NCBI GenBank assembly: GCA_004297485.1
Contig: SCTM01000261.1
Span: 1 to 42,933, forward strand
Direction of reading: 5' to 3'
Source: Rhodospirillaceae bacterium
Lineage (GTDB): Bacteria; Pseudomonadota; Alphaproteobacteria; Rhodospirillales; Rhodospirillaceae
DNA: 42,933 bases
Shown here piece after piece: positions 4,774-38,572 of the stretch (positions within the stretch are counted from its first letter, which is position 1; each line of letters begins with the position of its first letter). Position numbers and translations under genes: made by a program. Under the pieces are notes generated by a model. That model had not been told where the DNA came from and searched no databases. It worked only from the letters and a program-made list of their open reading frames with translations.

Positions 4774-6024
4774 ATGGCATCAGGCGCTTTCAGTAATTCG
4801 GCAACCAACCATCCGGGGACCAATCATGCGCTGGCGCCCCGCATGGCCGCGATCGCGTTCGTTTCGTACAACATGGCGCTTGCTAGCCTCTATGGAACGT
4901 ATGGCCTGCTGATTGGCCCGATCGAAGCCAAGCTGGGTGTAACCCGCGACCTGAGTTCGCTGGGGATTCCTCTGGCCATGCTGACGATTTCCATGACGGC
5001 GCCGGTTGCTGGCGTGCTCGCCGGCAAGGTCTCGATCCGTCTCCTGATGATGGTGGGAGCGTTGATGATGGCGGCCGGCTTCGCAGTGGCGGCCGCGGCA
5101 GGCACGATTACCATTTTTCTGGCGGCCTATGCGCTGTTGCTCGGCCCAGGCTTATGTCTCTCTGCCACCATCCTGCCGTCAACACTCGTCACGCGGTGGT
5201 TTAACGTCAACCGTGGACGCGCGCTCGGTATCGTCAATATGCCGATCCTGGCGGTGGGCTTACCGCCGCTTGCCGCGCTGGTGCTGCGCGATCACGGCCT
5301 CTCGACCACCTATTACATGTTGGCGACATTGATGGTGGTGTTGCTGGTACCGTTGCTCTTCGTTGTTGATTACCCACCCAGCACAATCGATCCCACCGGC
5401 GAGGACGTGGCTGCAGAAGCCGCCGCCGATCCTGGAATGCGTATCGGCGAATTGCTTCGCAGTATCCGTTTCTGGACGCTGACATTGGGATACGCGACCA
5501 TCGTATCCGGAACGACCATCATAGCATCCCATCTTGTGCCGATGGTGGTTGGCTGGGGTATCGATCCGACCAAGGCCGGCACCTTGCTTGCCATCAGCGC
5601 GGCCGGCGGGATGGCTGGATCGGTCATTTTTGGCTGGGTCGCCGACCGCATCGGAGGGGCGCTGACGCTTACGATGTTGGCCGCCAACGGCGCGATCTTG
5701 TGGGCCATCATGCTGCTCCAACCCCCTTATGCCGCACTTCTCGTGGTTGTCGCGCTGCTGGGTCTTAACGGGTCATCGGTGGCTACGGCTATGGGCATGG
5801 CGCTTTCCCAACGTTTCGGACAAGCCAGCTTTGGACGCGCCTTCGGCTTGAGCAATCTGGTGAGCCTGCCCTTCATGGTGTTGGGCGCACCCATAGCCGG
5901 ACACCTGTATGTGCTCACTGGTTCGTACACGGTCGCGGTGATTGGGCTGATCGGGCTGTTGCTGGTTGGAGCTCTGGCAGCTGCCGCGGGTCGGCGTGCG
6001 CAGCCGATGCCGGTGGCGGCTTAA
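4774..6024 (+). CDS. MFS permease, probable monocarboxylate/organic-anion type
   Basis: The protein has 416 residues and about 12 hydrophobic segments in two halves separated by a polar loop near residues 205-225 (DPTGEDVAAEAAADPGMR). The loop after segment 2 has the MFS signature in weak form (GVLAGKVSIRLLMMVGALMM), and the second half repeats it as GWVADRIGGALTLTM. The arrangement recalls the oxalate/formate antiporter and monocarboxylate transporter branch, so uptake or export of an organic acid across the inner membrane is a fair guess. A GGAAGGA ribosome-binding site lies 8 bp before the ATG. The stop codon overlaps the stop of the convergent receiver gene: TTAA at 6021-6024 serves both strands, with no room for a separate terminator. 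Confidence 0.85.
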   Translation: MASGAFSNSATNHPGTNHALAPRMAAIAFVSYNMALASLYGTYGLLIGPIEAKLGVTRDLSSLGIPLAMLTISMTAPVAGVLAGKVSIRLLMMVGALMMAAGFAVAAAAGTITIFLAAYALLLGPGLCLSATILPSTLVTRWFNVNRGRALGIVNMPILAVGLPPLAALVLRDHGLSTTYYMLATLMVVLLVPLLFVVDYPPSTIDPTGEDVAAEAAADPGMRIGELLRSIRFWTLTLGYATIVSGTTIIASHLVPMVVGWGIDPTKAGTLLAISAAGGMAGSVIFGWVADRIGGALTLTMLAANGAILWAIMLLQPPYAALLVVVALLGLNGSSVATAMGMALSQRFGQASFGRAFGLSNLVSLPFMVLGAPIAGHLYVLTGSYTVAVIGLIGLLLVGALAAAAGRRAQPMPVAA

Positions 6025-24826: not shown

Positions 24827-27334
24827 GTGAACATTAGTTCTGACAAGGGTGTGAGCCAGGCTCAAATGCCTCTTGGCCACGCGACGAGCGCCGCGCCGAA
24901 AGTTGTAATCGTTATTACGAATTTCAACTATGCGCGCTTCCTTAGACCATGTGTTGAAAGCGCGCTCCGCCAATCGCATTCATCGATTGAAGTCATGGTC
25001 GTCGACGATGGCTCAGTCGACGATTCGCGGGATATCCTATCGGGTCTCCAAACCGATTATCCAGAGCTAAGGGTAATCTTCCAAGAGAACGCCGGCCAAG
25101 CCGCCGCAATGAATACCGGGTTCGCACAAACGGATGGCGACTGGATCATATTTCTTGACGCGGATGATGTTCTCGAACCCCTCGCTATAAGCACGGCGAT
25201 TACCGCCGCCAAAGATGGCGATTTTGTCACCCAGTTCTATCTACGCACGATAGACAGGGAAGGACACGCTATCGGGCTGCACCCTTTTTCCAACGTCCTG
25301 GAGAGTGGAAACGTTTTTCCGCAAATCTGCGCGTCGGGACATTTCCGATACATGCCGACCAGCGGCAACATGTTTCGACGCGCGCAAGTCGAAGCCATTT
25401 TCCCTATCCCCGAAAAGGAGTGGCGTATTTGTGCGGATACCTATCTTCTGCTCGCAGGCGCGTCGCGGGGAAGCGTTTGTACTGTTCCCGAAGTCTTGGG
25501 TTCATATCGTATTCACGACACCAACGCTTGGTATCAAGACTCGCCGGGTCCAGAAAGATTAAGACAGATAATCCGAAATCATCTCGTTGTGTGGCGTCAA
25601 GTACTGGAACTGCGTTCCTATTGGCCCGCATCATGTGATGACCATACCCTATTGAGTCTTGTGCGCCGCATTCTGGCTTCGTTGACGCTCCACCGCGCCT
25701 CGGGCGCGTTATCAAACGCTGAGATCGGAAGTCTGCGCCGAGTGTTGAGACGCATCATTTTCCGAGCCAGGGTACCGTTCGGCGAGAAATGTCTGCACTT
25801 CCTCCTGCTGCAGGCCGCCGGGAAAAAATCTTCGCGTCTGTTCCAAGACCTTTGCGTTCCGCCGTCCCGTGGATTGCTGCAGAAGGTGGTTGCCATCCTT
25901 CGTGCTCCCGCCCGGCACGCGTGGCTCGCTAGAACTCCGGCGCCCAGCGAAATCGGTGAGATGTCGATAGGCCGAATCGTCCATTTTGGGCAAGGCGGCG
26001 AAGGCCGGAAGTTTGAACATTATGGTTTCGGAACGACAGAAAATTGGCGAAGTTGGTCGTCTGCCGAGCGCGCGGGCTTGATTTTTCGCATTGCTGACCG
26101 GTCGGCCGGTCTTACCCTGTCTATGGATATCTTGCCTTATATTTCCCCACCGCGTTTGAAATCCCAGCGACTCGAGATTCGTATAAAAGGGCAAACCCTA
26201 TATGCGGGAGAAATTGATGGACGCGCGAAAATCTCCATCGATTTGACGGCCGAGATGATTGGTGCCGATGGAATCGTTGCGCTCGAATTCCTTTTTCCCG
26301 ACGCGGTCATTCCTGCTTTCATCGATCCAAAGAGCACTGTCACGCGCGTTACTGCCATTGCATTGGAGTCTGTGAGTGCGCGAACGCCAGATAACGGCTC
26401 GCGACGCGACCGATATCCCGTGCTGCAACTAGGCAAGACCGAGGCCGCCGCCAATCTCCTCATGCAGCAGCCGCATGGCGGTTGGGACTGTTCCGACGGC
26501 TATGGACGCCTCTACCGCCGCCGTGGACAGATCCGATTTGTAGTGCCCAACCCCGTGATGGAACGGTTTGTCATTCGGCTCGAGTTTGAACGCGTGCCGT
26601 ATCACAATCTTGGCGACTATCGCGTGGGCGTGGAGCTTATGAACATTGGGCGGGACACCATCGATTTACGCGAGACGGGGACCGCGTTGCTTATTATTCC
26701 GCGCGGCAAAGCGCCGAAATCGGGTCTTTTCGACATCATTTGTCATGCATTCGATATTCTTCCAGGATCGGCCGACCACGATATGCCACCGGGGCCACGC
26801 CTTCTGTCGCTTGTGCTCCAAAAGTTTGAGATTGGCCCGGGAAAGACCAGCTTGTGGCGTTCCCATCAAATTGTTGCTTTCTCGCAGGATGGCGAGGGGA
26901 AAAATTACATGTTGGCGGGCTGGCACCCGCCTGACCAACGTGGCGCATGGACTGCCGACACCAGGGCCACGCTCGGTGGACTGTATTTTGAAGATCCGGG
27001 AGAGGTGTTTCTAACATTGCGATTGGGCACCTGGTCTGCCGGCGCGTTGCCCAGCCAACGCGTGCGCATTCTGGCCAATTCCAAGGTGGTTTTTGATCGT
27101 GAAATCGGAGAAACCGAGGATGTTCTTGCCGTGGTGCCCGCCGCATTCATCGGCGATGACCGCTATTTGAAACTTGAGATCGAAAGCCTTTTCATCTTGT
27201 CGATGCGGATGCTCAACCAGGACGATTCGCCCCGCAATGTTGGCGTCTGCCTCGAAAAGCTGGTCATCGAACCGCTTGCCGCCAACCGCGTTTGCCGGCG
27301 TTTGGATATGTTGTCCGAGCACAACGCGGGTTGA
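24827..27334 (+). CDS. Family-2 glycosyltransferase with three C-terminal beta-sandwich modules
   Basis: The frame opens with GTG at 24827 (AGGGGAA about 11 bp upstream). The 835-residue protein starts with a GT-A domain (about 24-270): VVIVITNFNYARFLRPCVES, DDGS at 60-63, and the metal-binding DADD at 111-114. A helical stretch follows (about 280-370). From about 376 come three modules of roughly 145 residues rich in predicted strands. The first and third share a pattern: IVHFGQGGEG or IVAFSQDGEG, a G-F/G-W segment, W-x-S/T-A, a strand, then ILPY or LGTW, then QRLEIRIKG or QRVRILANS. The middle module is more diverged. They look like jelly-roll carbohydrate-binding modules. It has no membrane segment and probably modifies surface glycan or glycoprotein. 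Confidence 0.8.
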   Translation: MNISSDKGVSQAQMPLGHATSAAPKVVIVITNFNYARFLRPCVESALRQSHSSIEVMVVDDGSVDDSRDILSGLQTDYPELRVIFQENAGQAAAMNTGFAQTDGDWIIFLDADDVLEPLAISTAITAAKDGDFVTQFYLRTIDREGHAIGLHPFSNVLESGNVFPQICASGHFRYMPTSGNMFRRAQVEAIFPIPEKEWRICADTYLLLAGASRGSVCTVPEVLGSYRIHDTNAWYQDSPGPERLRQIIRNHLVVWRQVLELRSYWPASCDDHTLLSLVRRILASLTLHRASGALSNAEIGSLRRVLRRIIFRARVPFGEKCLHFLLLQAAGKKSSRLFQDLCVPPSRGLLQKVVAILRAPARHAWLARTPAPSEIGEMSIGRIVHFGQGGEGRKFEHYGFGTTENWRSWSSAERAGLIFRIADRSAGLTLSMDILPYISPPRLKSQRLEIRIKGQTLYAGEIDGRAKISIDLTAEMIGADGIVALEFLFPDAVIPAFIDPKSTVTRVTAIALESVSARTPDNGSRRDRYPVLQLGKTEAAANLLMQQPHGGWDCSDGYGRLYRRRGQIRFVVPNPVMERFVIRLEFERVPYHNLGDYRVGVELMNIGRDTIDLRETGTALLIIPRGKAPKSGLFDIICHAFDILPGSADHDMPPGPRLLSLVLQKFEIGPGKTSLWRSHQIVAFSQDGEGKNYMLAGWHPPDQRGAWTADTRATLGGLYFEDPGEVFLTLRLGTWSAGALPSQRVRILANSKVVFDREIGETEDVLAVVPAAFIGDDRYLKLEIESLFILSMRMLNQDDSPRNVGVCLEKLVIEPLAANRVCRRLDMLSEHNAG

Positions 27335-27519
27335 CCCGCGCTTGCCGAAAGCCGTGGAATGCGTCCTCTGATTGGAGCTTGGGAAGAATAAGAGGCGAGA
27401 GTGTTCTCGACCTCCGTCAAGGGCCATGTTACAAAATAAAGCACGCGGGCCAGATGATCGGAGGGGTTCATCTGTAACGCGTTGGGGATCTAGCTTGAGA
27501 CGCATATCTGGGGCGGTGC

Positions 27520-28896
27520 GTGTCGTTAAAGAAATCTCGTAAGCGGAATCGACAACACCGACGAAAACTCGGGCACCTTGGCGCGGTCGTCGTCACAGCG
27601 GTCAGCGAGATAGTTTACCTTTCTCCGACGCAAGCTCGTGAGAACGCGCCGGTCACAGATAGCTGGATGCTTCATCCAGTCCGAAGCATCGTCATGGCGG
27701 TGGATGCGACATCTGTCGATTCAATTTCTGCCAAATCCAGCGACTGGAATGTCAGTCTTCCAATTGCGACTGGCCATCACAAAGATATCGAGCTGGCGGC
27801 TGATTTCGACCATATCGTTGTGCCGTCGCCCGAGCTCAGTAAGGCGCAGAGGGCAATGGCGGCGGATGCCCATGTGATCGGTCCTATAAGTCAGGCTCTG
27901 CATAGTTATCAGATGACCCCCGTACAGATCATCTCGGTGCGTAATTACATCGGACAGTACGGCGAAGATACAAAAATTGTCGATGCGGGTTCATACAAGG
28001 GCGCCTCGGTATTTGGCATTAAGGATGCAAAATCCGGGGAATTCATTGGGCAGATTGAGGTCCGTGCGGGCGCCAATGGCGAAGTCGTGATCAACAAGAT
28101 GACGGCGGCTGAATTCGATACGAAAAAGAAGATCGAGTTCACGATCCCCGGTAAAGCCAGTGATGAAGACGCACAAAAGGTTCTGGGCGGAAGCGCCGCG
28201 CACTCCGTCTTCACGAACGAGGAAAAAAAGAACGCGCTCGACGTTGTAATGCCGGGCTTCGTCAATATTGAGGGCCATGCCGACTACGGCAGTGCGCGCG
28301 AAGCGACCGCGCACTTTTATCCTGACGGATCAGGTTACGAATACGGACTCGCGACCAAGATCGCTTCCGCTCAAGGCGAAGCCAAAGTGAATTTCGGCGC
28401 CTCCGTTGGTGCGGGCGCACGGGGTCCCGAGGTCGAAGGCTTTGTCAATTATTTCGGCAAGCCGGAAGCCGACGAGAACGCAAAATTCACGCGATCGGTG
28501 CTCGGCGGCACGGTCGATATGCACGCGACCCTGGCCGAAGTCCAAGCCAAGTACGGCTGTGAGTCCAACAAACCCTGCGAGATCAAAGGCGCGATTGGCG
28601 GATTGGGTGTCGGCGCCGGTGGTGGCCTCGCGTTCAGCCCGCATGTCGATATTCCGGTCCGGCCAGCCAATCAGATTGAGGATGGAGGCATAGCGACGCC
28701 GCCACCACCACCACCACCGCCGCCGCCAGATGAGCAGAAAGAATACGATGATGCGGTAAAGAGTGGCGACAGCACGAAGCTGGAGAGCTTTGTCGAGAAG
28801 CATCCGGAAAGTCCGCTCGCCGAAACCGCTGATGATCAAATCGACTATCACGTAACGGAAGATCCAGCCCAACCCATGCCCGTGGCGGGCTATTAA
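27520..28896 (+). CDS. Unknown exported protein with decaproline linker
   Basis: I do not recognise this 458-residue protein. It starts at GTG with GGGGCGG upstream. The N-terminus is strongly basic (KKSRKRNRQHRRK), followed by a hydrophobic stretch and PTQA-RE, which can act as a long signal peptide. The middle is rich in short strands and glycine (about 230-385: VNIEGHADYGSAREATAHFY, VNFGASVGAGARG, IGGLGVGAGGGLAF). A run of ten prolines lies near 394-403. The last 50 residues (DDAVKSGDSTKLESFVEKHP, then ESPLAETADDQI) resemble the short helical hairpin often attached to caspase-like or scaffold proteins. It lies between two glycosyltransferases, so it could be a glycosylated surface protein or an assembly factor. 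Confidence 0.6.
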   Translation: MSLKKSRKRNRQHRRKLGHLGAVVVTAVSEIVYLSPTQARENAPVTDSWMLHPVRSIVMAVDATSVDSISAKSSDWNVSLPIATGHHKDIELAADFDHIVVPSPELSKAQRAMAADAHVIGPISQALHSYQMTPVQIISVRNYIGQYGEDTKIVDAGSYKGASVFGIKDAKSGEFIGQIEVRAGANGEVVINKMTAAEFDTKKKIEFTIPGKASDEDAQKVLGGSAAHSVFTNEEKKNALDVVMPGFVNIEGHADYGSAREATAHFYPDGSGYEYGLATKIASAQGEAKVNFGASVGAGARGPEVEGFVNYFGKPEADENAKFTRSVLGGTVDMHATLAEVQAKYGCESNKPCEIKGAIGGLGVGAGGGLAFSPHVDIPVRPANQIEDGGIATPPPPPPPPPPDEQKEYDDAVKSGDSTKLESFVEKHPESPLAETADDQIDYHVTEDPAQPMPVAGY

Positions 28897-28936
28897 GCTC
28901 GCGGACGGGTCATGGTCATTGGAGCGTTCGTCATTG

Positions 28937-29791
28937 ATGCGAAGCGTATCTCCATTTTTCAGCGTTCTGATTGCCGTTCATAATCGGCACGATTTTCTTG
29001 TGCGCGCGCTTATGAGCGTGATCAATCAGGTGGAACACGACTATGAGGTTGTCCTCGTCGACGACGGCTCAACCGATGGCACATTCGATGTAGCTGAGCG
29101 TTTCTTCAAGACCAACAATATTGACGCGCGGACCCTGCGTCTCCCCAAGAATGTCGGTATTCCCCGCGCGCGCAACGCCTGCTTGAGCATGGCATCAGGC
29201 GCCATCGCGGCATTTCTGGACAGCGATGACATCTGGCATCCCCGGCACCTGTCGCTCCTAAGGCCGGCTTTTTCGCAGTCCAAGCAGCCAGTTTTCGTGT
29301 TTACGGATTATTTCAGCGAAGGCCCATCGTTTTCGGGACCGGTACGCCACTTTCGTAAGCCCCCGACTGAGCTTGACCCGATCGTACGCATGATAACCGA
29401 GCCATTCGTGCATACAATGAGTTGCTTCGCGGCGCCCATGAGCGCGATTCGCTCCGTCGGCGGTTTCACCGAGCGCCTTAGCCGGTTTTCCGATCTCGAT
29501 CTCTATGTGCGCCTCCTCGCAGGTCCCGATGATGCGGGCACGCTTGCCTGGCGGGAGCAGCCCATTGTGAACATTCCGCAGATCAGCGTGCTCAAGACGA
29601 TTCACCTGTTTGATCGCGACATCGACGACTACCAATGCGCGTGGGAGAAAGGCAAAAGAGATTTTCTCGATCAGATTTTTGCTTATCCCTGCCTTCGTGA
29701 CAGGTCGGCCCTACGCCAACAGTGTGAGGCTGCGCTTTTGGCGGGACAAAAACGGTTATTTGCGAACTTTCCCCGAGCGGCATCTTCCTGA
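28937..29791 (+). CDS. Family-2 glycosyltransferase
   Basis: I start at the ATG at 28937 (MRSVSPFFSVLIAVHNRHDF), 12 bp after GGAG; a TTG at 28919 would add six residues. The 284-residue product is a compact GT-A domain: FSVLIAVHNRHDFLVRALMS, the nucleotide-binding DDGS, VGIPRARNACL, and the metal-binding DSDD in AAFLDSDDIWHPRH. A later FSDLDLYVRLLA segment corresponds to the acceptor-side acidic motif. There are no transmembrane helices, so it works at the cytoplasmic face. It probably adds a sugar to the same glycan or protein as the large glycosyltransferase upstream. It converges with the radical SAM gene over a 100-bp gap that has no clear terminator. Confidence 0.85.
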   Translation: MRSVSPFFSVLIAVHNRHDFLVRALMSVINQVEHDYEVVLVDDGSTDGTFDVAERFFKTNNIDARTLRLPKNVGIPRARNACLSMASGAIAAFLDSDDIWHPRHLSLLRPAFSQSKQPVFVFTDYFSEGPSFSGPVRHFRKPPTELDPIVRMITEPFVHTMSCFAAPMSAIRSVGGFTERLSRFSDLDLYVRLLAGPDDAGTLAWREQPIVNIPQISVLKTIHLFDRDIDDYQCAWEKGKRDFLDQIFAYPCLRDRSALRQQCEAALLAGQKRLFANFPRAASS

Positions 29792-29891
29792 AAAAAGGCA
29801 GTAGGTTCATCTACAGCTTCGCCGCCTCAGCCACCTTCCGATGTAGCAAGACGACTGGTTCAAAGCACCGGTTGCCGATACATGGCACACA

Positions 29892-30893
29892 TCACCCCAG
29901 GCCAGGATGCGTCGAGGATGGCGTGTGAGCGCGCGGTAGACGGCGAGACGTCATAATATCGAGCAGGCACGTGCATGCATCCCGACCGCACTGAATTGGA
30001 TCGCGTGGGAATGCTGACAGCCCGATATTCGCGATATTGCCTAGCCTGCCACCCTCCCGACAAACGCCCCGATAGACATCTCCCCGGACATCGACAGAGA
30101 GAAGCTCGATGCCTGCATCACACTCCCAGCCGCGCCATCTATTTAATCCATTAACGACAAAACTTTGAGGCGTTACGCTTTTTTGTGCCCCATCGTCATA
30201 GAAGACCCGCATCTCTCCGCGAATGGACGAACTCGGTTTGCTGACCTTCGTATGATATTTATTGTCTCTAAGGATTTGAAGCTGGGTGGCCGTGTACGGA
30301 TATAGATTTGAACCGAATGCCACAAACATCGGTTTGAGTATGATCGAGACGCGCTCACAACGTGCCGCTATGTGTTCCGCTGCTGAAATCGAGGCGGCGA
30401 AGTTTTCCGGCAATGTTGTGACGTTTACGTGAGTCTCCACCGCCGTGCTTGCCAAAGTTACGACGTCCACGAAATGATCAAGATCTGCGAACTCTGGGTG
30501 GAATGTCAGTGTAACGGCGGATAGCAACGGCAGGGACTCGTGCCACCACCGCGATGTCCTCGAACCATTGGATATAAGGCCTATCCCGAACCCAAATTGT
30601 TTAAGGGACCGCAACATCTCCAGGAATTGGGGCCTTACCGTCACCTCACCGCCGGTAAATTGGATGTGAACGCGTTTTCCTTGCGTAGCTGCAACCGTAG
30701 ACAGGGTGGCTGCGAACGCGTCGACTATCCGCAAGTCATGCCAGGGGATACTTCCGTTGTGCAATCCCTCTGGACAATAAGAACAAGCATAGTTGCACGT
30801 ATTGCCGAGCATCCAATCGACAAACAATATACCGGCCCGCTCCGGCGACCCATGTTCGATACGTATCGGCTCCACCAAGATTCCTTTTCGCAT
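29892..30893 (-). CDS. Radical SAM protein with Cys-rich C-terminus
   Basis: The protein has 333 residues. The radical SAM cluster motif is C33-x3-C37-x2-C40 (GNTCNYACSYCPEG). Next come the SAM-binding GGE (IQFTGGEVTVRP) and a partial TIM barrel. The C-terminal part has CDAGIELLSVDVRGDVYRGV, then C, and CGRDACTC near the end, like a reduced SPASM/twitch auxiliary cluster region. It lacks the length of full SPASM peptide-modifying enzymes. No precursor peptide gene is evident next to it. It may modify a protein or small molecule encoded elsewhere in the island. It is transcribed alone toward the second glycosyltransferase gene. The specific reaction is unknown. Confidence 0.85.
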   Translation of the reverse strand: MRKGILVEPIRIEHGSPERAGILFVDWMLGNTCNYACSYCPEGLHNGSIPWHDLRIVDAFAATLSTVAATQGKRVHIQFTGGEVTVRPQFLEMLRSLKQFGFGIGLISNGSRTSRWWHESLPLLSAVTLTFHPEFADLDHFVDVVTLASTAVETHVNVTTLPENFAASISAAEHIAARCERVSIILKPMFVAFGSNLYPYTATQLQILRDNKYHTKVSKPSSSIRGEMRVFYDDGAQKSVTPQSFVVNGLNRWRGWECDAGIELLSVDVRGDVYRGVCREGGRLGNIANIGLSAFPRDPIQCGRDACTCLLDIMTSRRLPRAHTPSSTHPGLG

Positions 30894-31020
30894 GTTGTCA
30901 CAGTACGAAAGACGGTCGCTAAAAGAAGCTCGCTATAGGTTGCAGCATGACAGCTAACGACGCCTATTGCGGCTTTTATCTTGCGTCACCTCAACGCTCT
31001 TTATCGATCACGACATGTAT

Positions 31021-32136
31021 CTATCCGGGCGATACGGACACCAGAGGGCTCACGCGCGAAATATCGCTGCCTTCAAGCATCAACATGATATTCAGCAATC
31101 CGAACGTCGTTTTACTATCAAGGTCGGAATCGGCAATGAAATACCAGGTGTTCCGATACCGTACTTTGACAGCTGAGTCGCTCGGCTCTGCTGACGAAGA
31201 CAGAACCCTGAACAAATCTCCGGAGGCCCGGTCAAAAGGCCCGCCGCTGCTTTCGCGGGGCTTCACGTATCCCTTCTGCAAGTCGCCGGGCGGCACATCG
31301 ACTCCTTCCGATAGGAAGTAGAAGGCGGCATAAAGCGAGCGTGTCGTGAGGACGACCTTGCCACTCCCCGTCGGCGGCGCGCCAACGCCGATTTGAAGGC
31401 GCATCGCGCGTCCGTCGCAGCCGAGGCCCAACGTCTTGCAGACCTTCAGATAGGGCTCGCTCGCTATCGCGGTAGAGCTGGGCGTGAATACAAGGGTATC
31501 GACGCCCCCAGCACCACTCGCCTCCATGCTGGTGGTCAATAGGCCATCGCGCTGCAAATCCCTCAAGGCGTCAACCAAATCCCTGTACTGCGCATAAGGG
31601 GGTTGTCCATTACTGTCCCTGCCTGCGTTGGTGTTGCGAATGCCGTTTATGGAATCTCCCGCAACCATGAGCACGCGCTCGATGCTCCAGCCCGATTGCA
31701 GCAAAAGGGATATCGTCCTGATATCGATCTGCGTAAGGATCTGCCGCACGAATTTTTCCCCGGTATTCGGCGCATAAAAGATAATGGGACTCTCGGCGAC
31801 CGCGCCGCCCGTGCCTATGTTCCCTCCACCGAAGACAAAGCGCTGAAAATTAGCACCAAGACTGAGGTTCGCACTTCGCGTGGTGCTGTTCGAAATCGCT
31901 GTGACGTCAAGAAACATGACCGGGTCGGAATATCTCTGCCGCACGATATTCAACAAAAGCTGCTGCGCTTCGGTTTGTTGCAGCGCTTCATTATAATGTG
32001 TACGGCTCCAATCGATGGTGCTTGGTCCCAACGGCGCACAAGCCGATAGAGTGGAAGCTATAACTGCGGCGGCGACAGCGGCCACACCAAGGGCAGGTGA
32101 AGCGCTCCGTCTTGTGGGCCGTCCTGTGTTCATCAT
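31021..32136 (-). CDS. Lipoprotein, last gene of the phosphagen-kinase operon
   Basis: I start at the ATG at 32136 because GGAGG lies 7 bp upstream; a frame from 32181 would precede the ribosome-binding site. The 371-residue product has a signal peptide with lipobox LSAC (ASTLSAC-APLG), so it should be a lipid-anchored periplasmic protein. Right after the Cys comes SRTHYNEALQQTEAQQLLLN, then IVRQRYSDPVMFLDV, a pattern I associate with a widespread but uncharacterised lipoprotein family. The rest is mixed alpha and beta with no known catalytic motif. It follows the kinase gene by 125 bp on the same strand and is probably its partner in the cell envelope. Confidence 0.7.
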   Translation of the reverse strand: MMNTGRPTRRSASPALGVAAVAAAVIASTLSACAPLGPSTIDWSRTHYNEALQQTEAQQLLLNIVRQRYSDPVMFLDVTAISNSTTRSANLSLGANFQRFVFGGGNIGTGGAVAESPIIFYAPNTGEKFVRQILTQIDIRTISLLLQSGWSIERVLMVAGDSINGIRNTNAGRDSNGQPPYAQYRDLVDALRDLQRDGLLTTSMEASGAGGVDTLVFTPSSTAIASEPYLKVCKTLGLGCDGRAMRLQIGVGAPPTGSGKVVLTTRSLYAAFYFLSEGVDVPPGDLQKGYVKPRESSGGPFDRASGDLFRVLSSSAEPSDSAVKVRYRNTWYFIADSDLDSKTTFGLLNIMLMLEGSDISRVSPLVSVSPG

Positions 32137-32261
32137 AGATACGCCTCCAAAATCATCATTTAAGACCGTCGCCAGTTTCACTTCAGCTCAGTCCACACAA
32201 CATGCATGTGACTTGAACGAACCGCGACCGGCAAACGCATTTTCCGTTCAGGACAACAGTG

Positions 32262-33353
32262 TCAGTTGAGGTGAGCACGCGTCGTCGTCCGCGCCGCAAA
32301 AGACTTTTCCAGATCGATCAACTTCATGGCGCCCTCAAGGATTTCGTGAAGGCACTCGACTTCCGACAATCCGAGACGACGTTTGTTTGAGATATCGTAG
32401 ATATTTCCCGACATTGCAGATTGTTCGCCGAAGATACTTCGCACCGCGAGACGCTGTTGCATACATACATTCTGAAACTCTTGGCTCCCCCCGGACAAAG
32501 GAAGTCTCATATGAAAACTGGCGCGCAGGCCGGTGCCAAGATTTGTCGGACAGGAAGACAGATAGCCGTAGGTATCCGAGCGTTGAAATTCAAGAACGCG
32601 CTCGACGGTCTCGACGGCCTCGCACAAGCGCGCGAACGCGGCGGCAATGTCGGCGTTGCGTTGGATTGAGATCAGGCGCAGCTGATCTTCTTCGTTCACC
32701 CAGGCGAAAAAAGATCGTGCCTTATTGGCGAATACGCCTCGTCCGCCCGGCCAGTTCCGATTGAGGCCGGCAGCTTCCTGAAAGCGGTCGCCCCGCTCGA
32801 AAATGTGATCTTCGGCATCAGGCAGGTGGCTAGGGCTTGCGCCCCAATCCCCCACCGGCCGATAGGTGCCTGCCAAATCGCCAGAGAAAAGGGCTGCCGC
32901 ACTTTTTACCCGCTGCTCGACCTCCAGATCCTCATTCCCCGTTGCCGTCGGCCGCAGACGATAGCCGCAAATGTTGCGGGCGACCCGGATGCGGACCGAG
33001 ACAATAGAGTTTCCGTCCGGGTCGGGGTTGCCCGGCCGAAAGTGCTTTGCGTCCATGTCGCTGGGCTGCTGCCCGCCCTCGCGATAACCCGGATGGCATT
33101 CTGCGATCACCGGCGCAAACAAGGCCGCGAATACCGCATAACTTTCTGCATCTCCGGCATACACTCCAATTTTGCTGTCTGTGTTCTCAATCCCAGAGCG
33201 GATGCAATCGTACAAGCCAACGCCATTACGCGTTTTCCGGTCCTTAAGCTCATTCCAGACATCAAGCGTCAGATACGTCTTTAGCAACGAACGGCAACCC
33301 TCCGGAAACTCCGGAAAGCCGTCCGCCGATCGACCGCGAACTGAATCGGTCAT
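32262..33353 (-). CDS. ATP:guanido phosphotransferase (arginine kinase-like phosphagen kinase)
   Basis: The protein has 363 residues, the full length of animal arginine kinases, with both domains (bacterial McsB lacks the N-terminal one). The helical N-domain shows TLDVWNELKDRKTRNGVGLY and the substrate loop S60-K-I-G-V-Y65. The catalytic domain keeps the phosphate-binding arginines R121, R123 (SVRIRVARN), R226, R277 and R305. It also keeps E222 (NEED), C268 in CPTNLGTG, E310 and YDISNKRRLGL. In Limulus numbering these are R124, R126, R229, R280, R309, E225, C271 and E314. E310 in the flexible loop is typical of arginine rather than creatine specificity. His227 is Gln. It should reversibly form phospho-arginine from ATP in the cytoplasm. 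It sits inside an operon of binding proteins. Confidence 0.93.
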   Translation of the reverse strand: MTDSVRGRSADGFPEFPEGCRSLLKTYLTLDVWNELKDRKTRNGVGLYDCIRSGIENTDSKIGVYAGDAESYAVFAALFAPVIAECHPGYREGGQQPSDMDAKHFRPGNPDPDGNSIVSVRIRVARNICGYRLRPTATGNEDLEVEQRVKSAAALFSGDLAGTYRPVGDWGASPSHLPDAEDHIFERGDRFQEAAGLNRNWPGGRGVFANKARSFFAWVNEEDQLRLISIQRNADIAAAFARLCEAVETVERVLEFQRSDTYGYLSSCPTNLGTGLRASFHMRLPLSGGSQEFQNVCMQQRLAVRSIFGEQSAMSGNIYDISNKRRLGLSEVECLHEILEGAMKLIDLEKSFAARTTTRAHLN

Positions 33354-33396
33354 GCGCTGTTTTATTTTCTACGTGGTTGTGACGCGATTCATCGGC

Positions 33397-34131
33397 TCAC
33401 GGCGCGCGGCAATAGTCGTCTGCAGCCACCACCTTGGTAGCTTTAGCGGTGGTTGCTGGAGCGACTATGAATTCGGACGCGCCATAGTGTTTGGCATTTG
33501 CGGTGGGCGCCCAGTCGTAGGTGTAGCCCAATCGCGTGTAGGGATAGCCTGGGCCCTTCGGATTATCCACCACATAGGAGGCGGCCATTTGCTCGCCGAT
33601 AAAAGTACGCAATTCGGCCGATGTGCTTGAGCGCGCGTCAATCGTGCAGACGGGCTTCGTCGGGTCGGTTTCATCCACGCCCAGGCAAGGGCGCTCAATC
33701 CGCTCGCGCGGAATTTCAAGATCAACGAATTTCGTCTTGCGGTACTGCACTGGCGGGTCCATGGGAAGCCCGAGGAGTTGTTCCAATCGCCGCCGAAGGG
33801 CGTCCCCGTGCAAATTCCAGGTCCTGCAAATAGATTGCACCTCACCCCCGAGGGTTACCCACAACGGGGTGGCGCCGACTTTCATGTCGCACGGCAAAGC
33901 GTCGTTCGTGCAGGGGAGGCGTTGTTCTGTAACCCACGACACCATGGTGATCGTTGCGCCTGCGGGCAGAACGCGGAGGGGAGCCACCTTGCCGGGGCTA
34001 GCGACTGCCGCGTCGCTGATGGCAGCTCTATAGGCTTCCTGTGTGCTGACATTGTTCGGCGGCGTGGCCACGCAGCCAGCCAGCAAAGACGCGAGAACGA
34101 GCGGCAGATATAGTGACGTAAGTGCTCTCAT
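33397..34131 (-). CDS. Lipoprotein of unknown function
   Basis: The protein has 244 residues with a signal peptide and lipobox LLAGC (VLASLLAGC-VATPP). An AGGGAGG site that overlaps the end of the upstream TAXI gene gives strong translational coupling. The mature part has several Cys pairs (LPCTNDALPCDMKVGA, RPCLGVDETDP, VCTIDARS, final DDYCRAP), likely disulfides in the periplasm. I do not recognise the fold. It is 44 bp upstream of the phosphagen kinase and probably belongs to the same envelope complex as the binding proteins. Confidence 0.7.
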   Translation of the reverse strand: MRALTSLYLPLVLASLLAGCVATPPNNVSTQEAYRAAISDAAVASPGKVAPLRVLPAGATITMVSWVTEQRLPCTNDALPCDMKVGATPLWVTLGGEVQSICRTWNLHGDALRRRLEQLLGLPMDPPVQYRKTKFVDLEIPRERIERPCLGVDETDPTKPVCTIDARSSTSAELRTFIGEQMAASYVVDNPKGPGYPYTRLGYTYDWAPTANAKHYGASEFIVAPATTAKATKVVAADDYCRAP

Positions 34132-34145
34132 CTCAAAACGCCTCC

Positions 34146-35495
34146 CTAAACGGCGGTCTGGTGAATTCTGGCGCGCGCATCGGCAATTGCTAGCAGCAAG
34201 GCTTGCGGTAACAACGCGTTGTCCAGTCGCGCAGCACCCAACTTGCAGAGCGCTTCGGCCTTGATCGTTGAAAGTTGAGTCTGCATGGCGTCGACGAGTT
34301 CCGGAGGCATCGGGCTTTTCCCGGATTGCGAACGCGTGGCTTCAAATTGCTGCTCAATAGCAGCGACGTCATTGATCCAGGCGACAAAGACCGGATCGTC
34401 TGCCGGGGGCTTGGGCGGCTCGTACGCCTCGCCCCTGAACCACCTGAACGCCACCAGTGCCGTGGACAGCATTGAAAGCGACAACCCGACCAGCGCCTTG
34501 ATTTTGTCCAGTGTCGCCGAAGACAGTAGCGGATTCTTGCGTGCCAAGAATAACTGAGAACCTTCCGAAAGCGGATAGCCCGAAGGCGTCGTCAATTGGT
34601 TTTCGTCGATCTTAACGTTCGTGCGTACCGCAAGCGCCGGGCTATAGAGACTCTCCAGAACACGGAATATAGCGCGGGGCTCCACATCCTTATTGGCGAC
34701 CAGGTCCATATTGACGCCTATCGTTCTGATGTCGCGGCCGGGTACCGGCGGGGTGACGTTGTATGTGTATGCTAGAATCTTCGCGTCGGCGACCCAGCCG
34801 TACCTGAGTGCAAGCGAGGCCGGAAATGGAATCTCAAGTAGGTTGTAGCCCCGTTCCTTGACCAGGTACTCCGCTATGTCTGTGGGGGCGATCGCGGTGA
34901 CCATAACCGCGTCCGGCAGCTTGTCGTCACGCATGTGCAGCAACTCTTCCGTCGAGAAATTGGTTTCCACGTACTCGACGCCGTCATTCAGCCCTGAGAA
35001 CTGCAAGACTTCCTTGGCAACAATACGTGTCCCGCCCAGGCGAGAGCCGAGATTGACCAGTTTGCTTCGCAGTCCCGATATGTCCTTTATTTCGGGGCGG
35101 ACCAGCAATTGCAGTTGCTCGGGCGCGATGTAAGCCACGTGTCTTACATTCGGATATTTGTTTTCCAAGCCGCCCTGAATAAAGGCCAGATCCAGCTTTC
35201 CTTCGTTGAGCGCCATCAGTGCCTCTTGCGAGCCGGACATGGGGTACAGCCGCAAGGCCACGCCATTGTTGGCGGCTTCCTGCTGCAGTACGCGGGCGAT
35301 GAAATGGCGGCTGCTCAGGATGTCCCCGCCGGTGATCGAAAGCGCATATTGCTGCGGCAAAAAGTCGTAAAGAAACGACCCGGCAATTCCCAGCAGGCCC
35401 AGAACGGCGCACACGGCCAGACCCGTACGCACCTTCGCGTTTTTCTGAAGTCGCTCAAGGATTCCCTCCAGCAACTTATGGGCTTCGTTGGCCAT
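34146..35495 (-). CDS. TAXI-type solute-binding protein with two membrane anchors and a cytoplasmic tail
   Basis: The protein has 449 residues. A hydrophobic segment at about 23-45 is not a cleavable signal. Residues about 50-320 follow the TAXI family of TRAP binding proteins (YALSITGGDILSSRHFIA, SGSQEALMALNEGKLDLAFI, DISGLRSKLVNLGSRLGGTR). A second hydrophobic segment lies at about 333-352 (IKALVGLSLSMLSTALVAF). About 96 residues follow, mostly helical (AIEQQFEATRSQ, TQLSTIKAEALCKLGAARLD). This topology places the binding domain in the periplasm and a tail in the cytoplasm, unlike soluble TAXI proteins. No TRAP permease is nearby. TAXI proteins bind small carboxylates such as glutamate or related ligands. 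Here a sensory role is more plausible than transport. Confidence 0.82.
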   Translation of the reverse strand: MANEAHKLLEGILERLQKNAKVRTGLAVCAVLGLLGIAGSFLYDFLPQQYALSITGGDILSSRHFIARVLQQEAANNGVALRLYPMSGSQEALMALNEGKLDLAFIQGGLENKYPNVRHVAYIAPEQLQLLVRPEIKDISGLRSKLVNLGSRLGGTRIVAKEVLQFSGLNDGVEYVETNFSTEELLHMRDDKLPDAVMVTAIAPTDIAEYLVKERGYNLLEIPFPASLALRYGWVADAKILAYTYNVTPPVPGRDIRTIGVNMDLVANKDVEPRAIFRVLESLYSPALAVRTNVKIDENQLTTPSGYPLSEGSQLFLARKNPLLSSATLDKIKALVGLSLSMLSTALVAFRWFRGEAYEPPKPPADDPVFVAWINDVAAIEQQFEATRSQSGKSPMPPELVDAMQTQLSTIKAEALCKLGAARLDNALLPQALLLAIADARARIHQTAV

Positions 35496-35514
35496 GATGC
35501 CTGCTTATGCCTGC

Positions 35515-36354
35515 TCAATAAGTTGTAACGAACCGATGCGTATCGACGATGCTTTGGCCGGCGGCGCTCCGCGTGAAATCCACGAAGAGCCGTGCCGGAC
35601 TCTTCGGGTCGTCGTTCATGACCGCGAGGTATAGAGACTGCGTGTAAGGATAACGGTTGGATAAAATGGTTGCGGGTGAGGCATCGACGCCATTCACAAG
35701 CACGTGACGGACACTTTCGCCGTCTTGCCTGTCCTTGAACAAAATGCAGCCAATCGCGCGCGGATCGTTCGCGACTGTTTCAATGATCTGCTTCGGAGTG
35801 TCACACACGTGCGTTGTGACCGCGAGATCACCGCCGGCCAGAATCTCCTCTTCGATAAAATGTCGCGCTGGCGTACCATGCGCTCCGGCGACCACTTGAA
35901 CGGCTGCATTGGGTCCGCCCACACGAGCCCAGTTGACGATCTCGCCCGTCAGAAGGCCGCGGACTTGATCAGAGGTGAGTGAGCTTATTGTCGACTCGCG
36001 ATTAACCACAATATCGACGGCGTTGCGCGCGATCAGATAATTGCACAGCGACTTTTCATCCTCGCCTTCCGTCAAATCACGGTCCATCGCCGCGACATCG
36101 ATCGCACCGCGCTTCAGGGCAATCAACGCCGACAGCGAACTGCCTGCCTCGATAACCACATCGATGTGTGGATAACGCTTAGAGAACTCGACCGTCAAAG
36201 CCCGGTTTAGTTCGAACATGGCGGATGAGCCGGCAAGAAGCAAAGGTCGGCGTGAGGTGCGCCGGGAAAAAGGCCACGTCGTCACCTTTGCGGCATGAGC
36301 AGGAGTTGCCGTCGCAACTACACCAAGAAGGATCAGGGCATCGCGCCGTTTCAT
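35515..36354 (-). CDS. PstS-like periplasmic substrate-binding protein B
   Basis: The protein has 279 residues. Its N-terminus MKRRDALILLGVVATATPAHA is a signal peptide with an RRxxxL start that could be Tat-dependent. The mature part follows the phosphate-binding-protein family (PBP-like): LLLAGSSAMFELNRAL, VIEAGSSLSALIALKRGAID, then VRGLLTGEIVNWARVGGPNA, and a late YPYTQSLYLAV strand with FVDFTRSAAGQSIV. It lacks the neighbouring pstC, pstA and pstB. The ATG overlaps the stop of the upstream gene by 4 bp (36351-36354), so it is co-translated with protein A. Ligand could be phosphate or another oxyanion. Confidence 0.85.
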   Translation of the reverse strand: MKRRDALILLGVVATATPAHAAKVTTWPFSRRTSRRPLLLAGSSAMFELNRALTVEFSKRYPHIDVVIEAGSSLSALIALKRGAIDVAAMDRDLTEGEDEKSLCNYLIARNAVDIVVNRESTISSLTSDQVRGLLTGEIVNWARVGGPNAAVQVVAGAHGTPARHFIEEEILAGGDLAVTTHVCDTPKQIIETVANDPRAIGCILFKDRQDGESVRHVLVNGVDASPATILSNRYPYTQSLYLAVMNDDPKSPARLFVDFTRSAAGQSIVDTHRFVTTY

Positions 36355-37196
36355 GGTGCGGCGCCGTTCGGCGGCGTGTCGGCTTGGACTGCGATGAAGC
36401 CAGGAGACTGGAGGCGTCCGCTCACGCTTGAAAAATAGCCGACAAACGCGCGCGCGGCTGCGGCCGGATGTTCATTCGTTACCAGCATCAGCGGAGCAAC
36501 CAACACATAGCGCTTGGCGCGCACGTTCTCCTCATCGGCATTTTCGCCGTCTACCGTGAGGGCTTTGACGCGCCCGTCGAGGTCCCCATTTGAAATGAAT
36601 GAAACCGCGCCGAAATCGGCGGCGACCAGCTTAATCCTCTTTCTCTCATCAAGAATCGTGACCTTGGGCGTATGGGAATCGTCATCACCAATCAGTGTCG
36701 TCCGCCATGATTCGGTGAGCCCATCCGACGGCGGCCCTATAAGTACTTTTATGGGAAGATCTCTGCCCCCGATCTGTTTGAAGTTATCGACGCGGCCGGT
36801 AAATATGTCGCGCAGTTCCTCCATTTTCAGGTCATGCAACGTATTGCCTGGATTAACAACGGGGACCATGGCGACATAGCCAACGGTCGTACTCACAAAT
36901 TTGGGACTGCCTTGATTCAAAAAGGCAAGCGTTTGTTCCGTGGGCGCGCTACTCGCCATAGCGATGTCGGCCGTTCCGTCGATCAACGACTTGTAACCGC
37001 GAGCGGTCCCGCCCGCACTGACAACAATGCGCGCCTCCGCATGCTCGCGCATGTAGTTTTCAGCCACGCGCTGCAGCATCGGCATAAGGTTGGTAGAACC
37101 ACGAATATGCACCGTGGGCAGGGGAGATTCCGCCGCGGCGGTGCCAATATGTATGAGCACACACAGAAACACCCCCTTACTGAGATGACGTCTCAA
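36351..37196 (-). CDS. PstS-like periplasmic substrate-binding protein A
   Basis: The frame is open from an ATG at 37313, but I prefer the TTG at 37196. It has AAGG 7 bp upstream and yields a proper signal peptide (RRHLSKGVFLCVLIHIGTAAA). The mature protein shows VHIRGSTNLMPMLQRVAENY, IVVSAGGTARGYKSLIDGTA, then DIAMAS, MEELRDIFTGRVDNFKQIGG, and VAPLMLVTNEHPAAAARAF, all typical of PstS-like binding proteins. It is the first gene of the six-gene operon. It and protein B share an architecture but are clearly diverged. No permease or ATPase gene is in the island. Confidence 0.82.
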   Translation of the reverse strand: MRRHLSKGVFLCVLIHIGTAAAESPLPTVHIRGSTNLMPMLQRVAENYMREHAEARIVVSAGGTARGYKSLIDGTADIAMASSAPTEQTLAFLNQGSPKFVSTTVGYVAMVPVVNPGNTLHDLKMEELRDIFTGRVDNFKQIGGRDLPIKVLIGPPSDGLTESWRTTLIGDDDSHTPKVTILDERKRIKLVAADFGAVSFISNGDLDGRVKALTVDGENADEENVRAKRYVLVAPLMLVTNEHPAAAARAFVGYFSSVSGRLQSPGFIAVQADTPPNGAAP

Positions 37197-37763
37197 ATGG
37201 TGCCTTAATGAGTATGCCAATTGGCCTCCCGCAATGTGGGTAGACGCGGCGCGTGACCGGCGGTACCAAGCGAAAATCTTGCTTCGGACCCGGGATGATC
37301 TAACGCGCACCATGTCGGGTCGTTATTGGCCAAATTGAATTGGTGAGATGGATTGCAGATGACAATCAGCATGTCTCGACCAGTCGCTATGTGTCTCCAT
37401 GGCGAAGACATGAACACAGATAGAACCAATTTACATGTTACATGCACCAAGCGCTTTGTAAAACACAAAGGGCGTGGAGTCGCGTATCTTACGAGAATGC
37501 AGGTCGGCATCGATGTCTGCGAGGTCGCAGTTCGTGTTGGTTTTTAAGCTCGTGGGAAGAGGGGGGCAGCCCCGCCGTTGTGTGGCCCAGTAACGCCAGG
37601 CAGAGTCTCGTCGCCGAAGTGGACCCTCGCGGCGGCGGATTGACGATTGATTCGGCCACACGAAAGTCGATAGTGGTCGTGCGGTCACGGGTACCTAACC
37701 GTAGTCATGTCGAAGCTGATAAGGACGTGCATCTTGGAGTAGTTGTCCCATCTTCAGACGACG
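37197..37763. other. Intergenic region with probable promoter of the phosphagen-kinase operon
   Basis: Between the operon start and the integrase fragment I see no convincing gene. Short frames here lack ribosome-binding sites and family similarity. The region is visibly AT-richer than its neighbours, and the leftward promoter of the operon must lie in it. A small inverted repeat CTTTGT...ACAAAG occurs at 37454-37470 without a T-run. If the upstream ATG at 37313 were the true start of the first operon gene, the first 117 bp would be coding. Confidence 0.4.
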
Positions 37764-37964
37764 ATGGCGCATAAGCATGAGAAGGAAAAACGAGAACGTG
37801 AACGTGAACGCCGCGGATCCAATAAACCTCCTGGCCCTGCTCTGCCCGAATACGCGTGGGACAGTCAGACTCTCGGCTTCGGCGTCAAAGTAAGGTCCTC
37901 AGGTCAAATCACCTTCATCCTCTAGTACCGAACCACCGAAGGCGGCCGATCGGCACAGCAGCGG
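37764..37964 (+). pseudogene. Tyrosine recombinase (island integrase), N-terminal fragment
   Basis: The start MAHKHEKEKRERERERRG is charged and is followed by ALPEYAWDSQTLGFGVKVRS, then SGQITFIL, an amber stop (37923-37925) and YRTTEGGRSAQQR in the same frame. The W-D-x-x-x-x-GFGV-x-V-x-x-SG-x-x-x-F pattern is the N-terminal (DUF4102-like) opening of tyrosine recombinases that mobilise islands. The remaining core-binding and catalytic parts are absent because the frame runs into an IS481 transposase. The position beside tRNA-Gly supports identity as the original island integrase. Confidence 0.6.
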
Positions 37965-38483
37965 TGGTTCGGCATCGAGCGCATTAAGCCCGGCCATCCG
38001 CAGCAGAACGGCCGCCATGAGCGCATGCACCTGACCTTGAAAAAAGAAGCCATCCGGCCACCGGGCGTGAACAGCCTTCGGCAACAGGCCAGGTTCGATG
38101 TCTTCGTCGAGGAGTACAATATCGAACGCCCTCACGAAGCCCTCGCCATGAAGTGTCCGGCAGAGGTCTACATTCCCTCAAACCGCCCTTACCGCGGTCT
38201 GCCCGAACTCAGCTATCCCTTCCACGACACAGACATCGTCGTCACCGATTGCGGCCGCATCTGCATGCACCGCAAGAAAATCAACCTCTCGCTCGTATTC
38301 GCCGGTCAGACCGTCGGAATTAAAGAAGTCGACGACGGCATTTGGCTCGTCAGCTTCATGCACCATGATCTCGGCTATATCGACCTGGAGCAAAGGACCT
38401 TGCAGCCCATCGACACCCCCTTCGGTTAAGGGTGTCACCTATGTCTCCGGTACCTTCCGTTACCCATGTCTCCGGGCCGGACA
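37965..38483 (+). mobile_element. IS481-family remnant: transposase C-terminal half and one end
   Basis: In the same frame as the integrase fragment, 37965-38429 encodes the last 154 residues of an IS481-type DDE transposase. Visible parts are GIERIKPGHPQQNGRHERMH, carrying the catalytic-domain end, EYNIERPHEALAMKCPAEVY, and the C-terminal IWLVSFMHHDLGYIDLEQRT. After the stop come two copies of ACCCATGTCTCCGG and the terminal GGCCGGACA. The N-terminal DDE part and the other end are missing. The last 146 bp are duplicated at 24472-24617. An 11-bp inverted repeat (CCGAACCACCG at 37928-37938 and CGGTGGTTCGG at 37962-37972) marks the junction with the integrase fragment. Confidence 0.8.
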
Positions 38484-38497
38484 GTCATATTCGATAT

Positions 38498-38572
<75 letters not shown>

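Follow-up and report, generated by a model that had tools for sequence, protein, structure and literature searches.

A recurrent gene trio of two PstS-like proteins and a TAXI-like protein, linked to a phosphagen kinase in two proteobacterial classes

Five of the six genes of an operon in the 42,933-nucleotide stretch of Rhodospirillaceae DNA that we analysed (the window) belong to an arrangement that recurs in other bacteria. Its core is three genes, encoding PstS-like proteins A and B and a TAXI-like protein with two predicted membrane helices (together PPT), while a phosphagen kinase and two lipoproteins are variable additions. The linkage of the kinase to PPT is present in two proteobacterial classes. 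Because most of the arrangement recurs elsewhere, its occurrence in the window is more than chance. PPT combines three binding proteins from two families, one of them probably membrane-anchored; it spans several phyla and is apparently undescribed. A literature search found no description of the module or of an equivalent system, in agreement with the preliminary description of this DNA, whose author knew of none with such a composition.

All six open reading frames lie on the minus strand (Table 1). In operon order, the intergenic distances are −4, 19, 14, 43 and 80 bp, the last measured to the GTG start of lipoprotein 2; the ATG 45 bases further in gives 125 bp. This confirms the leftward run with short gaps and overlaps reported earlier, save for a one-base difference before TAXI and the kinase (19 and 43 bp versus 20 and 44). 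The TTG start of protein A is backed by the N-termini of aligned homologues. No signalling domain was detected in any of the six proteins by Pfam and a curated profile scan. The downstream radical SAM gene had no tblastn match in loci L103–L126 at E 1e-4, and its membership in the unit is not supported. We also considered the operon as a defence system, which is unsupported: PADLOC models matched none of its six proteins. Two further window proteins went through the same scan, and one of them, the radical SAM protein, touches on models for viperin.

Table 1. Features of the operon and the gene downstream of it (positions in the window).
Feature	Position	Strand	Pfam	Remarks
PstS-like periplasmic protein A	36351..37196	-	PF12849	TTG start; probable signal peptide
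PstS-like periplasmic protein B	35515..36354	-	PF12849	twin-arginine-like N-terminus by eye
TAXI-like binding domain protein	34146..35495	-	PF16868	domain between two predicted membrane helices
Lipoprotein 1	33397..34131	-	no Pfam family	lipobox Cys20
Phosphagen (guanidino) kinase	32262..33353	-	PF02807 + PF00217	full length
Lipoprotein 2	31021..32181	-	no Pfam family	
Radical SAM protein	29892..30893	-		127-bp gap downstream of operon

The names PstS and TAXI are valid at the superfamily level, since the scores fall under the curated TIGR cut-offs: the two PstS-like proteins, both matching PF12849, reach 136.6 and 122 bits against 206.6 for TIGR02136, and the TAXI-like protein reaches 42 bits against 84.35 for TIGR02122 (49.8 and 47.6 for its homologues in L103 and L107). 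By sequence, the nearest solved chains to the PstS-like proteins are phosphate-binding proteins. Protein A has no arginine at two pocket columns where the solved PstS chain 4gd5 has one, and all 18 rows of its alignment are without arginine in the column before the Ser-Gly-Thr motif, presumably a PstS pocket position. The pocket Arg157 column of protein B holds arginine in 19/20 family rows and glycine in the window copy.

A predicted model of the TAXI-like protein (mean pLDDT 84.6) shows the TAXI fold, with 8u79 as the best Foldseek match in the PDB (E 3.9e-17, TMt 0.80). It contains helices at residues 20–45 and 325–354 and three tail helices, and hydrophobic peaks in the sequence coincide with both predicted membrane helices. 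The second of these is the weakest part of the model (block pLDDT 52–69 over residues 321–360); the N-terminal helices have pLDDT 61–79. The protein is probably anchored in the membrane, in a topology that would place its C-terminal helical tail in the cytoplasm. Homologues in L106, L110 and L119 are short (367–372 aa) and lack this tail, which therefore is not the general output. Within the family, Arg63-His64 is invariant in 21/21 alignment rows. PMC11574862 names a glutamine as a main determinant in TAXI binding proteins; from our reading of the HMM alignment, it corresponds to Gln107, kept in 17/21 rows.

We surveyed PPT loci with a pattern-based scan. A search with a TAXI-only profile yielded 24 loci, and both PstS-like genes adjoin TAXI in every one; the order is A-B-TAXI in 23 and TAXI-A-B in L122. 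Seventeen of these loci sit on contigs unmatched by a preceding chimera search, which scored no more than two candidates from any genome (E 1e-6), so that absences in it are weak. The hosts are Alpha- and Betaproteobacteria, Myxococcales, relatives of Desulfovibrio, Paenibacillus and one Obscuribacterium MAG, and the linkage of the core is thus seen across phyla. TAXI had no match on plasmids. In the window's own family, 24/73 genomes matched the TAXI search, and those besides the window were weak and generic (best E 8.6e-8). Among the loci surveyed, the complete six-gene set was found in the window only. The earlier view of six genes as one unit hence stands for a recurrent core with lipoprotein 1 and the kinase, and not for the full six.

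Lipoprotein 1 carries six cysteines beyond that of its lipobox, kept in every row covering them. It follows TAXI in five betaproteobacterial loci (L103, L104, L105, L107 and L109), with 50–55% identity to the window copy. Its model is weak (pLDDT 65.1) and gave no fold match at E 0.001. Nine other lipoprotein 1-like stretches in the window's order (26–33% identity) had no other operon protein nearby. The link of lipoprotein 2, the sixth gene, to the unit is weak: a relative directly follows TAXI in one other PPT locus, and in genomes from the window's family other relatives have a large ABC transporter as neighbour. Seven plasmid records also hold relatives, and in the five annotated plasmids that we opened, genes for RND/TolC-type efflux or for metal transport are no more than about 8 kb away from them.

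The kinase scores over cut-off for both phosphagen kinase domains (94.4 bits for PF02807 and 185.1 for PF00217) and far under the cut-offs of two protein-arginine-kinase profiles (121.1 vs 385 and 111.5 vs 500). To our knowledge, little is known of what proteobacterial arginine kinases do. Ten of 14 catalytic positions checked in an alignment to arginine kinase numbering, with numbering and roles as we take them to be, are kept, including the equivalents of Arg124, Arg126, Glu225, Arg229, Cys271 and Arg280. The changes are Glu314 to Ala, Arg309 to Phe, Gly64 to Lys and Val65 to Ile. Its substrate is uncertain because the Glu314 equivalent is missing. As far as the accessible text of PMC6429109 goes, only a few proteobacterial arginine kinases are listed, their origin is called debated and no binding-protein context is described for them.

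Among the rows compared, the window kinase is nearest to eukaryotic arginine kinases (five eukaryotic segments), with a top identity of 46% to the solved arginine kinase 4rf6, which we take to be from a sea anemone. On this likeness in sequence, we do not conclude direct transfer from an animal. Trees place the window kinase beside animal arginine kinases and the kinases of Polaromonas in a group of their own, into which the first tree also draws L020, a bacterial kinase from a different order on a very long branch. A second tree omits the long-branched L020, L027 and L134 (3/21 rows); in it the animal rows alone are not a single clade. A clade of window and Polaromonas kinases was not rejected (p-AU 0.07), so the separation in the trees favours independent recruitment without establishing it. 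The same placement disfavours the view that the kinase was an ancestral component common to these operons.

A kinase gene comes next after lipoprotein 1 at L104 and L107 and, with a contig break in between, in a third Polaromonas genome; in each of these genomes it accompanies the PPT core together with lipoprotein 1. The neighbourhood search suggested in the preliminary description thus recovered the kinase together with TAXI and PstS-like genes in genomes other than the window's. Of 87 genomes of Polaromonas, the genus of G701, four contain PPT TAXI and three contain PF00217, all three within those four (hypergeometric 3.8e-5, with no correction for relatedness). Of 349 genomes sampled from the family of G701, only G701 itself had PF00217. 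The kinase is an accessory of PPT, present in 4/26 PPT genomes with the window's counted in. PF00217 occurs in 6/17 PPT genomes searched (three Polaromonas and three taken for McsB) and in none of eight other PPT genomes of the window's order. Across 317 genomes of that order, 8 have the kinase, 9 have PPT and 1 has both, no more than chance (p 0.21). An initial scan of genomes with only the kinase as query gave no relatives. A search of plasmids with it gave 21 records; coverage was close to full length in one, from Candidatus Bandiella (32.5%), and most of the remainder are annotated as protein arginine kinase.

Our best reading, which we hold tentatively and at rather less than an even chance, is that PPT acts as a receptor module in the periplasm whose outputs can be exchanged. 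The two PstS-like proteins and the membrane-anchored TAXI would bind ligands in the periplasm, probably a small anion. Occupancy could then be signalled through the two TAXI membrane helices and the tail on the cytoplasmic side. The receiving partner, in the cytoplasm or the membrane, would be exchangeable; in the window genome and three Polaromonas genomes it would be the phosphagen kinase, assisted in the periplasm by lipoprotein 1. In other lineages, a DASS-cNMP symporter fusion, a SulP protein with a cNMP domain or a CRP-type regulator may take this slot or its surroundings. L096, with PstS-like and histidine-kinase-like proteins upstream and a CRP-type regulator downstream, speaks for this reading. 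Topology, complex formation, ligand class, signal direction and coupling to the kinase are what we infer.

The PPT binding proteins may instead serve a transporter, since DASS or SulP genes adjoin some PPT loci. PPT would then be the binding part of an unrecognised system, delivering an anion to a cyclic nucleotide-gated DASS or SulP symporter or to a distant permease, with the kinase buffering ATP or storing phosphate as phosphagen. We consider this possible, and somewhat less probable than a receptor. In three betaproteobacterial loci (L103, L105 and L106), a DASS-cNMP fusion lies in line after TAXI or lipoprotein 1; the one in L106 overlaps the TAXI gene by its called start. In the window's order, a Pfam-checked SulP-STAS-cNMP protein lies divergent beside PPT in L097, and a divergent neighbour in L100 has a very similar start. 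Contig C191 of the window genome carries two PstC-family matches, below cut-off, followed by what by eye is an ABC ATPase. However, the window operon has no symporter, and the only other transporter group recurring in at least three loci by neighbour clustering is ABC ATPases, seen in six loci but constant in neither position nor strand. We also know of no use of binding proteins by the DASS and SulP families. Among 37 window ORFs scanned with Pfam, there was no ABC or TRAP permease and the sole transporter was an MFS protein (4774–6024); neighbour clustering, with Pfam on chosen neighbours, showed no recurrent TRAP permease group at other PPT loci. The earlier claim that the binding proteins lack a transporter holds for these window ORFs, but is qualified by the DASS and SulP genes elsewhere, which fit transport as well as sensing.

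It is unlikely, in our judgement, that the kinase was merely acquired horizontally and inserted, with no functional link, into an older PPT-lipoprotein operon in a lower-GC island. The operon region is indeed lower in GC, with a tRNA-Gly and a transposase-like fragment nearby, and window and Polaromonas copies are 30–35% identical for the kinase versus 51–53% for TAXI. For the seven further kinases in the window's order, none of the other five operon proteins was found nearby as far as the stretches reach, two of which are short. Yet in Polaromonas, too, the kinase comes immediately after lipoprotein 1, and the remaining 84/87 genomes of that genus gave no PF00217 match. Least probable is a mixed envelope- or phosphate-stress operon whose products each act alone under one regulator: neighbours of the core do vary between lineages, but its three genes are adjacent in 24/24 loci over several phyla, which argues for a joint product.

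Returning to the receptor reading, it is tempting to speculate, though we think it doubtful in this full form, that PPT represents a novel type of transmembrane receptor in which three solute-binding proteins, with TAXI as the membrane-spanning signal unit, accept plug-in outputs. Phosphagen kinases would have been recruited in two proteobacterial classes, possibly independently, and periplasmic anion sensing would control a cytoplasmic phosphagen pool. With its fixed place beside a conserved module for sensing or transport, the kinase offers a hypothesis on proteobacterial arginine kinases that can be tested directly, and the arrangement in distant bacteria could show the role of these rare animal-like enzymes.

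LuxP-LuxQ and BvgS are binding-protein-coupled receptors that use periplasmic binding proteins for sensing, as we propose for PPT; unlike them, the window has no fused histidine kinase or output domain, and has three binding proteins from two families. Its PstS-like proteins share PF12849 with the TIGR02136 group but fall below that cut-off, occur as two tandem copies with no PstCAB among the scanned window ORFs, and lack pocket arginines (in A) or one of them (in B). TAXI TRAP binding proteins such as VcGluP and TtGluBP have a common fold with the window protein (best structural matches 8u79, 1us4, 9ibo and 8s4j), which differs in its sub-cut-off TIGR02122 score, two predicted membrane anchors and predicted cytoplasmic tail, and has no TRAP permease beside it in the scanned ORFs; near the invariant Arg-His of the window family, TAXI proteins have Tyr-Tyr by our own motif reading, outside the HMM alignment. 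McsB shares the catalytic domain with the window kinase, which differs in having the N-terminal phosphagen kinase domain. Arginine and other phosphagen kinases of animals and a few proteobacteria share both Pfam domains and 10/14 positions with it, whereas the window copy is without the Glu314 equivalent and is encoded beside a binding-protein module.

The six genes of the operon are closely spaced (-4, 19, 14, 43 and 80 bp for our choice of start codons). Pfam assigned both PstS-like A and PstS-like B to PF12849 and the TAXI-like protein to PF16868, and it matched both PF02807 and PF00217 in the kinase. Lipoproteins 1 and 2 received no Pfam family, and the TAXI-like and PstS-like proteins fell below the NCBIfam cut-offs for TAXI and PstS. 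The operon lies inside a possible genomic island of lower GC, together with glycosyltransferases and a radical SAM gene; GC3 is 0.57–0.70 in the measured genes of this stretch versus 0.66–0.81 outside it, ranges that overlap. Viperin models matched the radical SAM protein weakly (49.1 bits in PADLOC; 49.3 in NCBIfam, where the cut-off is 180).

Features in the window and in loci of other genomes
Feature	Location	Strand	Remark
Six-ORF operon	window 31021-37196	- (leftward)	
Possible genomic island	window 24827-38572		
Radical SAM gene	window 29892-30893		
Short ORF	window 37743-37925		by eye similar to the N-terminal part of P4-type integrases; without Pfam match
Transposase-like fragment	window 38025-38429		rve_3 match below cut-off
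tRNA-Gly	window 38498-38572		close to lower-GC stretch
Lipoprotein 2 relative, then ABC transporter	L049 8814-13409		
Genes downstream of the trio	L098 5180-8617		
Phosphagen kinase homologue	L027 5893-6990		annotated hypothetical

PstS-like A, PstS-like B and TAXI (together, PPT) recur as a unit. When four operon proteins were run as a joined query over 317 genomes of the window's order, strong TAXI matches (E < 1e-80) appeared in nine genomes, the window's own among them, and in the remaining eight both PstS-like genes adjoin TAXI. A profile of seven TAXI proteins (A1), searched alone against genome contigs, returned at least 24 loci, a lower bound because the scan was pattern-based. Seven are contigs already found by the joined query (L111, L112, L115, L116, L119, L123 and L125, the last from Magnetospirillum sulfuroxidans, a member of the window's order) and 17 are new; two PstS-like genes adjoin TAXI in all 24. 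We regard this gene linkage as established. The hosts include Polaromonas, Rhodoferax, Oxalobacteraceae, Burkholderiales, Sheuella, Azospirillum, Magnetospirillum, Rhodospirillales and unplaced Alphaproteobacteria and Proteobacteria, and also Myxococcales, Fundidesulfovibrio, Desulfovibrio, Paenibacillus and Candidatus Obscuribacterium. Among 20 PstS-like B rows, 19 carry a pocket arginine that the window copy lacks; in PstS-like A, the arginine of the pocket column is absent in 18 rows.

The genes added around PPT differ between loci. Lipoprotein 1 directly follows TAXI in L103, L104, L105, L107 and L109, and the kinase comes next in L104 and L107. In the third Polaromonas genome, L109 ends inside lipoprotein 1 and another contig opens with its last 30 residues, followed by the kinase. 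The slot is taken in L103, L105 and L106 by a sodium:sulfate/dicarboxylate-type (DASS-type) symporter fused with a domain that binds cyclic nucleotides (by Pfam in L103 and L106, by clustering in L105) and then a binding protein of another kind (PF04392 in the L103 scan). A SulP-STAS-cNMP protein stands divergently beside PPT in L097, and L100 has a protein that resembles it in appearance. Lipoprotein 2 immediately follows TAXI in L102, which is on the same contig as L123. In the window's family its neighbour, of about 1175 aa, shares its direction in L049 and is divergent in L050 (as two ORFs), L051 and L052; the one large protein scanned, in L049, is a 1177-aa ABC transporter with a CRP-like domain. 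Transporters bearing cyclic-nucleotide domains thus turn up repeatedly around the PPT and lipoprotein genes. In L096, PPT is preceded by a histidine-kinase-like protein and a further PstS-like one and has a CRP-type regulator downstream. When the neighbours were clustered, 8 loci shared a two-component group and 6 an ABC-ATPase group, with positions that varied. Downstream of PPT in L098 lie a thiamine-phosphate-synthase-like gene and then a small protein and a trypsin-nSTAND NTPase, as occurs in conflict systems.

The kinase is rare in our samples. Its protein query matched in one of 73 genomes of the window's family, and PF00217 was found in 8 of the order's 317 genomes above the cut-off (10 with E 0.001 as the limit), in 2 of 385 of a class sample, one of these two being the window's, and in 1 of 349 of a sample of the Polaromonas family. 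Within Polaromonas, the three kinase genomes (of 87) all fall within the four that have PPT TAXI (p 3.8e-5); because these genomes are relatives, the overlap may reflect a single event. For the order, a single genome has both, which is not significant (p 0.21), and PF00217 had no match in its other eight PPT genomes in the search of 317. Six of the 17 PPT genomes searched via their loci have PF00217, three being the Polaromonas cases. We take the other three proteins (two from Paenibacillus, one from Obscuribacterium) for McsB on three grounds: the N-terminal match is missing, the tree sets them on a branch of their own and, where one neighbourhood was viewed, it held what by eye is a ClpC-like gene. 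Counting the window's own, 4 of 26 PPT genomes thus have a phosphagen-type kinase, in every case together with lipoprotein 1. Elsewhere, alphaproteobacterial arginine-kinase-like genes (L013, L016) adjoin a thioredoxin-domain gene, a context unlike the operon, and a plasmid of Candidatus Bandiella (Euplotes culture) carries a homologue (L027).

The window kinase is 46% identical to one domain of the solved arginine kinase 4rf6, which we take to be a sea anemone enzyme, and 30–35% identical to the Polaromonas kinases; in contrast, the window's TAXI is 51–53% identical to those of L104, L107 and L109. A first tree grouped the kinase with five eukaryotic rows and L020, a long-branched bacterial kinase from another order (support 94/93), and a second placed it beside 4rf6 (85/77). 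In the second, two alternatives passed the test without rejection: that the window kinase forms a clade with all eukaryotic rows (p 0.47), and that it does so with the Polaromonas kinases (p 0.07). Ten of 14 checked positions (arginine kinase numbering) are kept, including the equivalents of Arg124, Arg126, Glu225, Arg229, Cys271 and Arg280; the changes are Glu314 to Ala, Arg309 to Phe, Gly64 to Lys and Val65 to Ile. The Polaromonas enzymes share the lack of Glu314, as does one domain of 4rf6. The window kinase is plausibly active.

We propose that PPT would act as a periplasmic receptor, with TAXI as its membrane unit and outputs that vary between loci; complex formation, ligand, signal direction and coupling to the kinase are all part of this proposal. 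The main rival is that PPT serves transport via DASS/SulP-type partners. The binding proteins could also serve a PstC-type permease elsewhere in the genome, and PstC-family matches do occur on another contig of the window's genome (C191). No description of the PPT-kinase arrangement was found in the literature searched, from which subscription journals were largely absent.

The TAXI model (mean pLDDT 84.6) comprises a helix at 20–45, the TAXI domain and a helix at 325–354, and ends in a tail of three helices. Confidence is low for the second membrane helix (block means 52–69), and hydrophobic peaks coincide with both predicted membrane helices. The closest structural matches are TAXI proteins, and we consider the fold established. 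Neither Arg63 nor His64 varies among the 21 TAXI rows. We infer that the ligand is anionic. In VcGluP, a TAXI TRAP binding protein, Tyr45 and Gln93 are reported as main determinants (PMC11574862). Its glutamine appears retained in 17 of the 21 PPT TAXI rows; its tyrosine pair, by our reading of the motif, is replaced by residues that include Arg63.
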